The position numbers and the translations under genes are program-made. The notes beneath the pieces were generated by a model. The model saw nothing but the letters and a program-made list of their open reading frames with translations. It did no database searches and had not been told where the DNA came from. A stretch of 35,173 nt of DNA from the NCBI GenBank assembly GCA_017437285.1, contig JAFSBM010000192.1, positions 1 through 35,173 on the forward strand, given 5' to 3'. The DNA comes from Ruminococcus sp. Its GTDB lineage: Bacteria > Bacillota > Clostridia > Oscillospirales > Ruminococcaceae. Below, one piece after another: positions 4,110 through 11,450 of this stretch. Position 1 is the stretch's first letter. Each line of letters begins with the position of its first letter.

Positions 4110-4793
4110 TTAGAATAAGTAATATTTTCCCTCAACCTGATAGATACGGAGGTTTAATGGTGTAGTATGGTTTTCCAGCACGTAGTTGTTGTCGCCTGCT
4201 GAATAGCAGGTATAGCCGCCGATTTCCACAACCTTTTTCGATGTGATTTTTTCTAAAATCGAGCTGTCAAAGACTGCAATTTCAGCGTCGGCAAACTGGA
4301 AGAACTTTTCAGCCTCCTCGCCCTCTGTAAGGCAATCCGAAATGTTAATGTAGTCAATTTCGAAATCCTCGCCCAAGGTTTGTTTCAGGGTTTGATTCAT
4401 ACCGTCAAGGTACTCGTCAGCATTTGAATAGCCGCCGTTTACGCAAAGATGCTCCAGATAGCCGGGATAGTAGAGGTTTTTTATTGCCTCGTGGTCATTT
4501 TCGTTGACAGCCACAATGTAATCGTGAACGAGATAAATTTCCCCTAAGTCCTCAGTTTCGCCCTCACCGCCGAAATAACGCTTGTCAAATTCCATAATAT
4601 ACTTTACTCTGCTGTCGTATTCGGGGCGAAGTTCGTAAATTGTAGCACCATAGGGCATATCTTCCTGTTTTACATCGCCTTTTTCATCGTCAACATTGCC
4701 GACCATATTTGCGTGTGAATGGTTATGGTCATCGCAGCTTGTCATTCCGCATAACATAATTGCGGAAAGTGCGAAACAAAGTAATTTTTTCAT
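4110..4793 (-). CDS. Predicted lipoprotein, function unknown
   Basis: The 227-aa protein begins with a lipoprotein signal peptide (MKKLLCFALSAIML...), with lipobox GMTSC and Cys20 as the predicted lipidated residue. A short His-rich stretch, HNHSHAN, follows directly and could bind metal. The rest is acidic, alpha/beta in character, and ends EGKYYLF. The upstream lipoprotein ends in a similar way (DGKYYTFG). Both contain a helical segment of the type ENYF/VHDY followed by NNDFESYK or ENDHEAIKNLY, which suggests that they are paralogues, possibly of an NTF2-like fold (inference). The ribosome binding site AAGGAG is 9 nt upstream. The gap to the preceding lipoprotein stop is 12 bp, so they are co-transcribed. 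Confidence 0.75.
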   Translation of the reverse strand: MKKLLCFALSAIMLCGMTSCDDHNHSHANMVGNVDDEKGDVKQEDMPYGATIYELRPEYDSRVKYIMEFDKRYFGGEGETEDLGEIYLVHDYIVAVNENDHEAIKNLYYPGYLEHLCVNGGYSNADEYLDGMNQTLKQTLGEDFEIDYINISDCLTEGEEAEKFFQFADAEIAVFDSSILEKITSKKVVEIGGYTCYSAGDNNYVLENHTTPLNLRIYQVEGKYYLF

Positions 4794-4805: not shown

Positions 4806-5552
4806 TTAACCGAATGTGTAGTATTTTCCGTCTTTTTCAGCAAGAATAATATTTGCCTCGCTGACAATTTTATGCTCATTTCCGTCCTCAGCTTTAGCCA
4901 TAACAAAGAAAGTTATGGGCATAAGCTTGTCAACATCTGCGGAAACCTCTTTATAGTAGTCGGTATCAAAAATCTCATCATAGCTTTCAAAGAAACTCTT
5001 AACAAAGCTTTCCTCTGTAACGCCTTCCTCGTAAATGGTATGTTCAGCTCTGATACGTGTTATGGTGTAATCTCCGCTGAATTCCTTATCCTCGGTGCTT
5101 TCGTAAGTAAGTGTATCTATGAGAATGTCACGGAGATTATTATAACGCAGTTCAAAGGAATTTTTCAGGCTGTAATCGCTGTCAACTCCCTCATTTTTGC
5201 TGTAAACCTCACGGAGATACTTGTCATAGCGTTCAGCATAGCTTGTATACATTGAAGCCTTGTAGCTTTCAAAATCGTTATTCTGAAATGAGAGGAAATA
5301 ATTTTCAAGGGCAAGGAGAATATCGGTAGAAATAGTTTCATCTTCGCAGTAAAGTTTTGTGCCGTTGGGACTGAAATAGTATTCGCCGAGGGAATATTCC
5401 TCACTGTCTTCGGCAGGAGAAATAAGCTCGCTGACGCCTTTTTCCGTCATTTCGGGAAGTGAAGCTGCGACTTCCTCTTTTTTTTCACAGGACACGCTGC
5501 ACACAGCTAAAGCAAGAGCCGAAAGTGCGGCGATTGTATTTTTCAAGTTCAT
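4806..5552 (-). CDS. Predicted lipoprotein, paralogue of the next gene
   Basis: The 248-aa protein has the signal peptide MNLKNTIAALSALALAVCSV and lipobox SVSC, followed by a Lys/Glu-rich tether and a roughly 200-aa acidic, Tyr-rich domain. Its end DGKYYTFG resembles the end of the following lipoprotein. The ATG at 5552 is chosen because CGGAGG lies 5 nt upstream and the signal peptide begins there. A further in-frame upstream ATG (5579) overlaps the inserted repeat element and is not credible. A promoter lies at 5748-5776, beyond a 157-bp MITE-like element that would be transcribed as part of the leader. It is the first gene of the operon with the second lipoprotein and the MIF-like protein. 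The function is unknown. Confidence 0.75.
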   Translation of the reverse strand: MNLKNTIAALSALALAVCSVSCEKKEEVAASLPEMTEKGVSELISPAEDSEEYSLGEYYFSPNGTKLYCEDETISTDILLALENYFLSFQNNDFESYKASMYTSYAERYDKYLREVYSKNEGVDSDYSLKNSFELRYNNLRDILIDTLTYESTEDKEFSGDYTITRIRAEHTIYEEGVTEESFVKSFFESYDEIFDTDYYKEVSADVDKLMPITFFVMAKAEDGNEHKIVSEANIILAEKDGKYYTFG

Positions 5553-5574
5553 ACAGACCTCCGAATTATTAATG

Positions 5575-5731
5575 GGCATCTCTAAAAACCCGTTTGGTTA
5601 AAGGAAAAGCAGATAGGTATGGCAGCTGCAAAGAAACCTTCCGCAGGCGTGCTGCCGCACTCCAAGGGAGGTTGACGCAGTAGATGCCATGCATAGCTGT
5701 TTTTTCTCAAAAGGGTTTTTTAGAGATGTCC
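5575..5731. mobile_element. MITE-like element A with 5-bp target duplication
   Basis: The 157-bp non-coding element has terminal inverted repeats (GGCATCTCTAAAAACCC at the left; the complement of GGACATCTCTAAAAAACCC at the right). It is flanked by the direct repeat TAATG (5570-5574 and 5732-5736). Inside are nested inverted repeats, for example ATGGCA/TGCCAT and AACCTTCC/GGGAGGTT. It sits between the promoter and the ribosome binding site of the lipoprotein operon. A second member is at 15162-15324 and a solo end at 10451-10466. No transposase is in the window. Confidence 0.7.
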
Positions 5732-5856: not shown

Positions 5857-5881
5857 GGCGGCAGAAATAAATTCCACCGCC
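5857..5881 (-). terminator. Terminator of radical SAM/dockerin operon
   Basis: GGCGG/CCGCC arms with partly complementary inner bases are followed on the minus strand by a TTTTTT run. The loop wording (CAGAAATAAATTCCACC) is shared with the terminators near 8710 and 32254, so it belongs to a terminator family. Confidence 0.65.
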
Positions 5882-5900: not shown

Positions 5901-5930
5901 TTATAATTCTGAAAAGTCGTTGATAAGTTT
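5901..5930 (-). repeat. Vestigial copy of the dockerin C-terminal codons
   Basis: The 30 bp after the stop of the dockerin protein, read in another frame, spell KLINDFSEL-stop. They are a near-copy of the true C-terminal codons KLIEDFSELE at 5932-5961, offset by 31 bp. This is a tandem duplication that created or shifted the stop codon. Confidence 0.6.
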
Positions 5931-7317
5931 ATTCAAGTTCTGAAAAATCTTCAATAAGCTTTGCGTCAAGCTTTTGAATTGCAATTGCGTCATCAGCTGT
6001 GATACCGTTGCCATTACCCACAACGTCAGCTGCTTTCATTCCGTTTTCTGACAATTCGTACTTATCGGGATTTGCGATATATTGCAGAATTGCAGCTGCA
6101 TCAGCAATGGAAACAGTGCTGTCATTATTTGCGTCGCCGTCGATATAAATTTGCATATCGCCCATTAACGGCGGAATAGTTGTCGACACTGTTGTCGGCA
6201 TCTGAGTTCCAATTGTAGGAGTTGTAGTAGTTGTTGTGGTGGTAGTTTTCTCGTCGGAGGGCATCATACCGCCTGCTATATATGTTTGTGTGGTTGTTGA
6301 TGTTGGAATAGTCTGTGTTCCCATAAGCGGTGGAATATCAGTCTGACGTGGACGTGTAGAGGTTGTAACTCCTGCAAGAGGAGGAACTGTAGTTGTAGTA
6401 TACTCATCGGGAGGCAGCGGCACTCCTGCAAGAGGAGGAACTGTAGTAGTTTCTGTTGTCGCTACAATTGTTCCCATAAGTGGCGGAAATGTAGTAGTTG
6501 TTCTTCCGCTTTCAAGATTTACAAGCTCAACCTTTTCAAGATTAACGCCTTTTTCTTTGGAATCGAAAACGGCAGCTGTAATAAAATCGTCGCTGTTAAA
6601 AGGAACACGATAGGATACAGTTGCTATGCCGTTTTTAACAGCAGCAGTAAAAAACTCCTCTACCATTTCGTGGTCAATTGCGGTTACAAATACACCCTCA
6701 ATTTCGTCACAATCTCCTTCTACTGAATATTGTAAAACTACATATTCTGCACACTGTGCGTAAAATGAGGCATAATGGTCTTCAATTTCGTCATTGTTAA
6801 ACAGAGCTTCTCCAATTTCAATTTCTTCGAGAGGCAGTTCAATTCTGTCATTTGAAGGAACAGCTGTAGTTGTTGTCAATTTTGAAACCACAGTTCCAAC
6901 TGTAGTGGTTGTAGTAGTTGCAGTAGTTGTAGTAGTTGTTGTCAATTTTGAAGTCTGAGTTCCGATTGTAGTAGTTGTAGTTGCTTTAGTTGTTGTAGTG
7001 TACTCATCGGGGGGCATTGCTACGCCATCTTCGGGGGGGAATGTTACGTCTTCATCGGGGGGCATTGTAGAACCGGGGGCAGGTGCAAGTTGAGATGTAA
7101 CTTTTGCTCTTGTAGTAGTTGCAGTCGTTGCAACCTCAGTTCCAACACGGGTTGTGGCTGCAACAGCACCTGCTGTTGTAGTAAAGGACGGTTGGTTTTG
7201 TTCCGCCGCATTTGAAGCAGCATGGGTGGTTTCAGTATTTGTCATTGCCATATTGGCAGATGTGCTTACTGAAACGGCAGCTAAAAGTGCCGCAATTTCT
7301 TTTGTGAATTTTCTCAT
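5929..7317 (-). CDS. Secreted Thr-rich dockerin protein with repeated Pro-Pro motifs
   Basis: The 462-aa protein has an N-terminal signal peptide (about residues 1-34), then Thr-rich low-complexity stretches that frame a globular domain (about 158-270), and a C-terminal dockerin (about 388-455). The dockerin has two Ca-binding-like segments, DGDANNDSTVSIADAAAIL and DVVGNGNGITADDAIAI. Ten short motifs stand out: PPDE type at 85-90, 93-98, 101-106, 301-306 and 352-357, and PPL[MA]G type at 277-282, 293-298, 311-316, 328-333 and 381-386. The globular domain shares the phrase AVKNG-x3-VSY-x2-P with the carbohydrate-binding-like domain of the right-edge protein. The gene starts 2 nt after the radical SAM stop, and its GGAGG lies inside the end of that gene, so the two are coupled. 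It may be a substrate of that enzyme (inference). Export and cellulosome attachment follow from the signal peptide and dockerin. Confidence 0.85.
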   Translation of the reverse strand: MRKFTKEIAALLAAVSVSTSANMAMTNTETTHAASNAAEQNQPSFTTTAGAVAATTRVGTEVATTATTTRAKVTSQLAPAPGSTMPPDEDVTFPPEDGVAMPPDEYTTTTKATTTTTIGTQTSKLTTTTTTTATTTTTTVGTVVSKLTTTTAVPSNDRIELPLEEIEIGEALFNNDEIEDHYASFYAQCAEYVVLQYSVEGDCDEIEGVFVTAIDHEMVEEFFTAAVKNGIATVSYRVPFNSDDFITAAVFDSKEKGVNLEKVELVNLESGRTTTTFPPLMGTIVATTETTTVPPLAGVPLPPDEYTTTTVPPLAGVTTSTRPRQTDIPPLMGTQTIPTSTTTQTYIAGGMMPSDEKTTTTTTTTTPTIGTQMPTTVSTTIPPLMGDMQIYIDGDANNDSTVSIADAAAILQYIANPDKYELSENGMKAADVVGNGNGITADDAIAIQKLDAKLIEDFSELE

Positions 7318-7319
7318 GA

Positions 7320-8294
7320 TTAATTACCTCCATTTTCTTTGTTAATAATTTCAAGTGCCGTTAAAATAAGCACTTGTTCTTCCAAGCAAGCGGCTTCGGA
7401 AATGTCAGTTACTGTGCCTGTTGTTGACATTTTTCTGCAAGCACATGAATTATGACAGTAATCCACAAGCTCGCAATCGTCGCATCGCTTTGAAACCATT
7501 GAATAGTCGGGGTGTGCCTTTCTCGCTTTTTCAGCTTCAATTCCCACATAAATATTACCGCAGCGGTAATCGGGGAGATTCTGGAACTGCACACAAGGAT
7601 AGAAATTTCCGTCCCAGTTGATGAAAACTTTCTTTTTGCATATTTCGCAGGTACCCTTGATATTTTCCCTTATATTTTTCTTTTTTACCTCCAGCTCATA
7701 CATGAAAAGGTCGTCAATTTCAGCGATTTTCCGCCATTGCTCCCTTAGCAAGTCACCGAAGCTGTCGGGGTCTTGGGGATTTGTAAAAGCGTTCATAGCC
7801 GCTGAAATTTTCTTTACTCCCTGATTTTTCAGATAGATGATATTTTCGTAAAGCTGAGGGAGTGTTTCCTCCGTATAGACAAGCTGAACGAGAGTTTCGG
7901 GCTGATATTTCAGCAGCATTTTCAGCTTTTCGTCAAGGAGCTGAGGAGAAACTCCACGGTCAGTACACTTTATGCCGTCATGGGACATATTTATAATAAC
8001 ATTTCGTTCAATGCACCATTTTATGAATTCCTCGTCAAGAAGTGTTCCATTGGTGGTAATTACGAATTGCACAGCCTTGACATTTTCGCAGTAGAATTTG
8101 ACAATATCCTTATAAAGCAGGGGTTCGCCGCCGAAAAGATAGACCGTATGTGCGTTATTGTTGCCGTTTATGTAATCCGCAATTTTCTGCTTTATATCCT
8201 CGGTAATATTGCCGTAGTCGGTGTTGAGATGCCGTTCATAGCAGTAAGAGCATTTAAGGTTGCATTTATTTGTAATGCTTATTGTATAATCCAA
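7320..8294 (-). CDS. Radical SAM/SPASM-type peptide or protein maturase
   Basis: The 324-aa cytosolic enzyme has the radical SAM cluster motif CNLKCSYC (Cys11, Cys15, Cys18) at the very N-terminus, the GGEP motif at 55-58, and a C-terminal SPASM-type Cys set. The latter comprises Cys216, 219, 234, 245, 271, 274, 280, 284, 286 and 303, including CDDCELVDYC and CHNSCAC. SPASM enzymes with such auxiliary Fe-S clusters usually modify ribosomal peptides or proteins (sactipeptide, ranthipeptide and cyclophane maturases, anaerobic sulfatase maturases). No sulfatase and no small Cys-rich precursor is next to it. The only partner is the coupled Thr-rich dockerin protein. The start is TTG at 8294, with GGAGG 8 nt upstream and a promoter at 8333-8361. 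The enzyme class is secure; the substrate is inferred. Confidence 0.88.
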   Translation of the reverse strand: MDYTISITNKCNLKCSYCYERHLNTDYGNITEDIKQKIADYINGNNNAHTVYLFGGEPLLYKDIVKFYCENVKAVQFVITTNGTLLDEEFIKWCIERNVIINMSHDGIKCTDRGVSPQLLDEKLKMLLKYQPETLVQLVYTEETLPQLYENIIYLKNQGVKKISAAMNAFTNPQDPDSFGDLLREQWRKIAEIDDLFMYELEVKKKNIRENIKGTCEICKKKVFINWDGNFYPCVQFQNLPDYRCGNIYVGIEAEKARKAHPDYSMVSKRCDDCELVDYCHNSCACRKMSTTGTVTDISEAACLEEQVLILTALEIINKENGGN

Positions 8295-8332: not shown

Positions 8333-8361
8333 ATTATAACATATATTACTCTGTATTTCAA
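8333..8361 (-). promoter_or_regulatory. Promoter of radical SAM/dockerin operon
   Basis: On the minus strand TTGAAA (8356-8361), a 17-bp spacer and TATAAT (8333-8338) preceded by TGT (extended -10). It is the only good promoter upstream of the TTG start. Confidence 0.7.
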
Positions 8362-10583: not shown

Positions 10584-11450
10584 TCAGCCGCCTGTAGAAA
10601 TCTTTGCGTATTTTTCGAGAATCAGTGACGCATCGGAAGAATCAACCAATCCGTCAAGGCTGATATCAGCGAAAATACGCTGTTTTCGGGAAAAGGTCAG
10701 AGGTGAGCCTGTGGAAATGAGTGCATATTCCGCAAGAACAGCCGAAGCGTCTGAGGAGTCCACAACATCATCACCGTTGGCATCTCCGAGGTCAATTTTC
10801 TTTACATCAATAAATTCAATGCCCTGTGCTTTGGCATATTTTTCAGCGGCAGTTCCCGTTGTACCCCTTATGATAAAATCGGGGATAACGGCATTTCCCT
10901 CACCGTGAGTTTCAGCTGTCATACCGATTGCATTTTCACCTATTTTCGTAACCGTTGAGGGGATAGCCGCATCATAGGCAACACAGCCGAAAAATGCGTC
11001 ATCGCCTATAGTTTTCACCGTTTTGGGAATAACTACCGTTTCAAGCTTCGGGCAGGAGAAAAAGCAGTCGTCAGGGATAGCCGTTATGGGAGCATTCAGC
11101 ACAACCTCTTTCAGTTCGTAACAGCTCATAAAAGCCTTTGCACCCATTGACTTTATATTTTCGCCGATGTTAATTGTTTCAACTGTAAAATTTCCTGCAT
11201 AAGCCTTTTCGCCGATTGCAGTTATTTTATACCCCTCGATTTCAGCAGGCACATCAGCCTCAGCGTAGCTGTAGGGCAGGTATACGCTTTTCAGTTCAGC
11301 TGTTTTGCCGTCTGAATTTACGAGAATTACATATTCCACAGAATTGATTTTCGTGGAAATCTCCTTGCGTGTATCGGTATCGGTTTCGGTATCTGACGCA
11401 GCAGCCGATACAGCTAAAATTCCGCTTAATATAGCTGAAAGAAGCTTCAT
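10584..11450 (-). CDS. Secreted BspA-type leucine-rich repeat protein with dockerin
   Basis: The 288-aa protein has a short signal peptide (MKLLSAILSGILAVSAAA), a spacer rich in Thr and Asp, and then LRR_5/BspA-type repeats. Examples are ITAIGEKAYAGN, KSMGAKAFMSC, TAIPDDCFFSC and KTIGDDAFFGC (about residues 70-200). The C-terminus is a dockerin with two Ca-binding segments, GDANGDDVVDSSDAS and DISLDGLVDSSDAS. BspA repeats commonly mediate binding to proteins or surfaces, so this may be a non-enzymatic cellulosome component. The ATG overlaps the TAA of the amidohydrolase gene by one base (TAATG), so translation is coupled to a metabolic gene. That is an odd partner for an exported protein. The family calls are firm; the ligand is unknown. 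Confidence 0.85.
   Translation of the reverse strand: MKLLSAILSGILAVSAAASDTETDTDTRKEISTKINSVEYVILVNSDGKTAELKSVYLPYSYAEADVPAEIEGYKITAIGEKAYAGNFTVETINIGENIKSMGAKAFMSCYELKEVVLNAPITAIPDDCFFSCPKLETVVIPKTVKTIGDDAFFGCVAYDAAIPSTVTKIGENAIGMTAETHGEGNAVIPDFIIRGTTGTAAEKYAKAQGIEFIDVKKIDLGDANGDDVVDSSDASAVLAEYALISTGSPLTFSRKQRIFADISLDGLVDSSDASLILEKYAKISTGG

Follow-up and report, generated by a model that had tools for sequence, protein, structure and literature searches.

Radical S-adenosylmethionine (SAM) maturases are known chiefly for modifying small peptides and a few enzymes. Here, we analysed a 35,173-nucleotide contig of Ruminococcus sp. (JAFSBM010000192.1, assembly GCA_017437285.1; hereafter, the window), in which the gene for a radical SAM/SPASM-type enzyme is followed by a gene for a secreted, Thr/Pro-rich, dockerin-bearing protein (hereafter, the partner), its putative substrate. 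We consider it likely that the two genes form a system for leader-guided, multi-site radical SAM modification of a protein displayed on the cellulosome.

The closest published idea that we found is TvgB of Halomonas anticariensis, which, according to excerpts of the report (PMC9062424), makes cyclopropylglycine at Val within the repeated TVGG motifs of TvgA. The likeness lies in one radical SAM enzyme of a SPASM-bearing subfamily acting repeatedly on a short Gly motif of a repetitive substrate without Cys; however, in the same excerpts TvgA is a precursor peptide encoded in a five-gene cluster with an oxidase and transporters, whereas here there are two genes and a secreted, mostly dockerin-bearing putative substrate. 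TigE (PDB 8vpo) is also among the closest known systems. The ranthipeptide maturase PapB (NF047865), which makes several linkages per substrate, is the best NCBIfam match of the enzyme, but the score of 117.8 bits falls below the cut-off of 340 bits. Similarly, the profile of the anaerobic sulfatase maturase anSME (TIGR03942; structures PDB 4k36-4k39) scores the enzyme at 63.5 bits against a cut-off of 349.45, and, unlike for anSME, there is no sulfatase here and there are many candidate sites rather than one. ChlB, with its ChlA leader (PDB 9gm3, 9gmc), is 18% identical to the enzyme and resembles it in fold.

FibroRumin maturases (TIGR04136), named as a possible link in a first-pass annotation made from the window's letters alone, do exist, and the same genome carries one, but it is a separate enzyme on another contig with small, Cys-rich open reading frames (ORFs) beside it. 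As a FibroRumin candidate the window enzyme was rejected, since it is not among the four TIGR04136 matches in the genome (E value up to 0.001; cut-off 400 bits). The true FibroRumin maturase (901.7 bits; genome G000, contig C167, L153:5788-9782) is preceded by the Cys-rich ORFs, one of them of 57 residues with seven Cys, and followed by a UvrA-like ATPase, as judged by eye. By profile scores, the window enzyme falls outside every maturase family compared here (PapB, anSME, and FibroRumin). In the literature, surveyed through titles and abstract openings with most subscription papers outside the search, we found no pairing of a radical SAM enzyme with a dockerin substrate; P-Doc-1, given in excerpts of PMC3672088 as a dockerin protein without other domains, could not be linked to the partner.

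Conservation of the enzyme-partner pair

Both genes lie on the minus strand. The enzyme gene (positions 7320 to 8294) encodes 324 residues, starts with TTG downstream of a GGAGG and specifies the motif CNLKCSYC, and the partner gene (5929 to 7317) encodes 462 residues. At their junction (7318 to 7336, minus strand), a GGAGG lies within the final enzyme codons and is followed by the stop codon, 2 nucleotides, and the partner ATG at 7317. This arrangement, including the ribosome binding site inside the enzyme gene, is as first annotated, and the GGAGG is kept by most of 16 relatives compared.

The two genes form a conserved and almost exclusive pair. Species genomes, when scanned, yielded 16 further loci, of which 15 lie in genomes labelled Ruminococcus and one in a genome labelled Clostridium. 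Surveys of the family and genus brought the total to 60 loci including the window, with some regions represented twice because they came from two collections. In 58 of these, a search from 60 nucleotides before to 300 nucleotides after the enzyme stop codon found a partner homologue directly downstream, starting with MRKF in 55 cases and MKKF in 3, at a spacing of -17 to +94 nucleotides. The 58 paired loci contain 42 distinct partners, 39 of them complete. Across 125 genomes of the genus, the enzyme (E value up to 1e-60) and the N-terminal leader of the partner (E value up to 1e-4) were found in the same 34, the two lists being matched by eye, and 91 genomes have neither. Across 396 genomes of the family, the enzyme occurs in 12, and the same 12 have the leader at E values up to 1.1e-6. 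Partner homologues regularly occurring without the enzyme, which the first-pass annotation had named as a refutation, were not found in the genus: the leader is present in 0 of the 91 enzyme-less genus genomes. Of four weaker matches in enzyme-less family genomes, those in G217, G204, and G370 resemble ordinary signal peptides and a single one, in G308, is leader-like. No enzyme turned up beyond the family: among 345 genomes of the order and 391 of the class (E value 1e-50), samples that include some family members, the window's own genome gave the only match, and a plasmid collection held only radical SAM proteins less than 60% identical to it.

The surroundings of the pair are variable. In 29 neighbourhoods hand-chosen from the 58 paired loci, no family of ORFs of 120 codons or more, protease and exporter families included, recurs in more than 4, the commonest families reaching that number; a wider gene cluster was rejected on this basis. 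These observations bear on the idea that the enzyme has a small-molecule or unlinked target and that the partner is merely co-inherited. Although two orphan paralogues of the enzyme speak in its favour, enzyme and leader occupy the same genomes amid variable neighbourhoods, and the leader is conserved beyond the needs of a signal peptide, which renders mere co-inheritance very unlikely.

Features of the enzyme

The window enzyme matches the Pfam Radical_SAM model at 61.5 bits (cut-off 29.5) and carries a CX3CX2C motif at residues 11 to 18. Cys 11, 15, and 18 of this motif are invariant in an alignment of 31 rows; row L011 lacks part of the N-terminus in one enzyme alignment, yet retains all three. 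Toward the C-terminus, Cys 216, 219, 234, 245, 271, 274, 280, 284, 286, and 303 are invariant in the same alignment, and they include all eight predicted SPASM-type ligands (216, 219, 234, 271, 274, 280, 284, and 303). An AlphaFold2 model of the enzyme, with a predicted local distance difference test (pLDDT) score of 92.6, resembles the folds of CteB, ChlB, and anSME over nearly its entire length in Foldseek and VIA-align comparisons, both made with this single model. The anSME alignment, which in its printed form stops before Cys 303, pairs every ligand Cys that it covers, and Cys 219 has no Cys partner in the CteB alignment. The full SPASM-type Cys set annotated in the first pass is present, whereas the Pfam SPASM model reaches 17.9 bits, under its cut-off of 21.5. 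Because of the Cys pattern and the fold, we place the enzyme in the SPASM subfamily, with two putative auxiliary-cluster Cys sets. Outside the cluster sets, Cys 94 and Cys 110 are nearly invariant.

The partner and its putative leader

The partner has an N-terminal hydrophobic stretch, judged by eye to be a putative signal peptide, and carries a type I dockerin at residues 394-444 (5983 to 6138, minus strand; Pfam Dockerin_1, 23.5 bits against a cut-off of 22.9). The genome of the window has at least 138 dockerin matches and 16 cohesin matches, and the partner, bearing a type I dockerin in a cohesin-bearing genome, is predicted to bind a scaffoldin.

Its conserved N-terminus, MRKFTKEIAALLA (7279 to 7317, minus strand), appears to combine a leader with the start of the signal peptide, as indicated by the alignment, a codon table of the 42 partners, and the genome surveys. 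The leader consensus is MRKFTKEI..L[LI]A, in which all 42 partners agree at positions 1, 3, 4, and 8 and 39-41 of them at positions 2, 5, 6, 7, 11, and 13, with the residues beyond varying. Across the 42 partners, the codons of Phe4, Thr5, Glu7, Leu11, and Ala13 vary freely; therefore, the constraint acts on the protein. The signal peptide therefore looks like a maturase leader. A putative precursor with a conserved leader beside a maturase gene agrees with the broad sense of a ribosomally synthesised and post-translationally modified peptide (RiPP) system; small precursor peptides are not what we found, the 39 complete distinct partners having 170-611 residues and one unlinked leader protein having 79.

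In the window's own genome, KFTK or KYTKEI near the start is found in none of 38 other dockerin ORFs from sampled stretches, some starts perhaps being misplaced, and there is no second leader-bearing protein, the next match having an E value of 0.057. The leader does, however, recur away from the enzyme in two enzyme-positive genomes. At L183, MRKYTKEI is followed by two IPPLAGT sites, a masked stretch that hides the dockerin frame relative to the start, and then a dockerin, and L184 encodes a 79-residue protein with MRKYTKAI and YEGGMM. These unlinked leader proteins suggest that the enzyme acts in trans on proteins bearing the leader as a tag.

Glycine-centred sites in the linkers

In the window partner, a first linker (residues 46-160; 6838 to 7182, minus strand) contains the x-x-Gly sites AGAVA, VGTEV, EDGVAM, IGTQT, and VGTVV together with PPDE units, and a second (residues 273-393; 6139 to 6501, minus strand) contains five PPL[MA]G sites, IAGG, and IGTQ. 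Where ten Pro-Pro motifs had been annotated, we count nine Pro-Pro dipeptides, comprising the five PPL[MA]G as annotated, two PPDEY, one PPDED, and one PPEDG; the noted tenth was probably MPSDEK. Further Gly sites without Pro-Pro, absent from the first-pass annotation, are TIGTQT, TVGTVV, RVGTEV, TTAGAV, IAGGMM, and TIGTQM. Comparison among partners shifts the emphasis to Gly: Pro-Pro fails as a hallmark, occurring in 35 of the 42 partners, and PPDE as a conserved site, PPD[DEA][YFLDE] being found in 10 of 42 only. The PPDE-type and PPL[MA]G-type motifs are halves of one unit, IPPLAGxPLPPDE, present in some partners, whereas the Gly core is general.

This core was profiled in 41 partners, whose linkers, cut out between residue 28 and the dockerin, gave 42 pieces with 5687 residues in total; neither the fragment L060 nor the folded middle of the window partner was included. 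Of 400 Gly, 324 were counted, a Gly directly after another one and any close to the end of a piece being dropped. Ala, Ile, Val, Glu, and Met prevail immediately before Gly (102, 40, 37, 36, and 31 of the 324, respectively), and Thr, although it makes up a quarter of linker residues, is five-fold depleted at this position. At the position two before Gly, Leu shows a five-fold enrichment and Thr is frequent; other enriched residues are Pro at three and four before, Met and Val at three after, and Asp at six after. The Val of TvgB-type sites is thus a minority choice here, and since Gly is most often preceded by Ala, cyclopropanation at the preceding residue cannot be the general mode. Linkers of 41 of the 42 partners contain the strict pattern [LTMV]-[AIVME]-Gly in 2-11 copies; L060, a fragment of 47 residues, has a single copy. 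The window partner has 10 copies among 257 linker residues, 16 of them Gly, as opposed to two copies among the 1906 residues (87 Gly) of Thr/Pro/Glu-rich linkers that 22 of the 38 other dockerin ORFs in its genome provided (Fisher p 2.5e-8, calculated on residues). This control covers 20 stretches plus the window, in a genome with at least 138 dockerin matches. Near-exclusive pairing and repeated candidate sites bear out the earlier proposal that the partner is the likely substrate, and we hold this to be very probable.

A substrate may nevertheless receive a single modification or only a few, perhaps in the dockerin or close to the N-terminus, with the Gly sites serving as linker punctuation, such as breaks in an O-glycosylated Thr tract. 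Sulfatases, which are exported and are matured at one site by a cytosolic SPASM enzyme, set a precedent, the fold of our enzyme matches that of anSME, and Gly conservation between sister partners is modest. Yet the strict sites recur throughout the 41 partners even though the C-terminal parts differ, they are rare in other dockerin linkers of the same genome, and the unlinked 79-residue protein retains leader and Gly site without a dockerin; single-site modification is consequently unlikely. The near-identical repeat units in L009 and L018 resemble multi-core precursors, as would be expected if the Gly sites were processing sites and the partner a polyprotein cut into many small peptides, with or without prior modification. 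However, no protease gene recurs with the pair among ORFs of at least 120 codons, and cutting would separate the repeats from the dockerin, which most partners have retained, so that we find this account highly improbable.

The sites also narrow down the chemistry. Cys lies within 6 residues of only 21 of 367 Gly sites, and the window partner holds 2 Cys, out of keeping with the Cys-X3-Asp/Glu motif of PapB substrates; sactionine and ranthionine chemistry were rejected as general modes in view of this scarcity of Cys. An aromatic residue lies within 3 residues of 116 of the 367 sites and within 6 of 179; cyclophane chemistry was likewise rejected as a general mode, but a mode requiring an aromatic residue may apply to part of the sites.

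Proposed mechanism

From the pairing and its near-exclusivity, the conserved leader, the repeated sites, the dockerin, and the enzyme fold, we infer the following course of events. Coupled translation would bring enzyme and nascent partner together locally, and the cytosolic enzyme would recognise the MRKFTKEI..L[LI]A stretch of the still unfolded partner, repeatedly modifying its Thr/Pro/Glu-rich linkers at [LTMV]-[AIVME]-Gly sites. The N-terminus would then work as a Sec signal peptide for export of the modified partner, which, in most cases, would be plugged by its dockerin into the cellulosome or a cell-surface scaffold. That several Gly-centred sites are modified seems reasonably probable. 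As to the reaction, our guess is C-H chemistry with a net oxidation, either desaturation or the formation of a bond, at the Gly or next to it, with a change of about -2 Da per site; we favour it because the enzyme has two auxiliary-cluster Cys sets and hardly any Cys lies near the sites.

Mass-neutral epimerisation is our second choice. In this variant, which is compatible with the other parts of the mechanism, the residue before Gly (Ala, Ile, Val, Met, Glu, or Ser) would be inverted, giving protease-resistant linkers with no mass change. The chemical variety of that residue fits alpha-carbon chemistry, PoyD and EpeE epimerise with a critical Cys according to excerpts of PMC8326336, and the nearly invariant Cys 94 and 110 lie outside the cluster sets. 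Taken as a whole, we rate epimerisation as improbable; provided that the rest of the mechanism is right, we lean somewhat towards oxidative over mass-neutral chemistry. Whether leader-guided, multi-site modification of this kind is a new class of protein modification, with many Gly-centred sites, no need for Cys or a fixed aromatic residue, a Sec signal peptide as leader, and action in trans on tagged proteins, appears to us evenly balanced.

Several points weigh against the proposed mechanism. The double role of the Sec signal peptide as leader is putative, and a recognition (RRE) domain is not visible in the enzyme. The strict Gly pattern was derived from the partners themselves, and 12 hand-picked sister pairs keep Gly at 87 of 106 ungapped positions only slightly above the 870 of 1150 for other residues; over 141 pairs, Gly and Thr have equal retention (0.60), with Pro at 0.50 and Ala at 0.28, which argues against strong selection on individual sites. 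Pfam Dockerin_1 is found in 32 of the 42 partners, three of the 42 being truncated, and the unlinked 79-residue protein has no dockerin. The enzyme paralogues L058 and L059 (genomes G096 and G292; 48-49% identity) have no adjacent partner; both genomes hold a full enzyme-partner pair elsewhere, and the orphans may act in trans. Finally, the leader-like match in enzyme-less G308 (E value 1.4e-4) is to a dockerin protein starting MRKYTKILASVLA, with a Thr/Pro linker that, by eye, lacks Gly sites; this start is perhaps the origin of the leader or perhaps a chance resemblance.

Two side observations concern these last loci. The neighbourhoods of L058 and L059 are alike in the two genomes, and in G308 (L055:1501 onward) the dockerin stands directly behind the leader-like start.

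If the mechanism is correct, multi-site modification of a structural protein attached to the cellulosome would add a chemical layer to the way in which gut and rumen bacteria build their fibre-degrading surface, and an enzyme that edits unfolded linkers under the guidance of a 13-residue tag would be on offer. It could also assign a purpose to part of the 118 dockerin proteins of Ruminococcus flavefaciens FD-1 in which excerpts of PMC2930009 note unknown regions.

Other features of the window and its genome

Upstream of the enzyme gene lies a promoter-like site, TTGAAA-17-TATAAT, in which TG precedes the second hexamer (8333 to 8361, minus strand; 11 of 12 consensus positions), and 3' of the partner gene a terminator-like hairpin (5857 to 5881, minus strand), both being consensus matches only. 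Enzyme and partner are likely to form a complete operon, although such flanking matches are also common in shuffled sequence: the scan gave 20 promoter-like sites against 7.9 in shuffles and 5 terminator-like sites against 3.4.

Elsewhere in the same genome (G000, contig C160, L155:1003-6252), two adjacent radical SAM genes, a 77-residue Tyr-rich ORF with three Cys, a subtilisin-like protein, and an ABC transporter, recognised by eye, look like a separate RiPP cluster. Within the window, two adjacent ORFs of similar size (4806-5579 and 4110-4793, minus strand) encode putative secreted proteins or lipoproteins with no Pfam match at E values up to 1. A further secreted-looking ORF (10584-11450, minus strand) has leucine-rich-like repeats, by eye, and a C-terminal dockerin match at 10620-10790.
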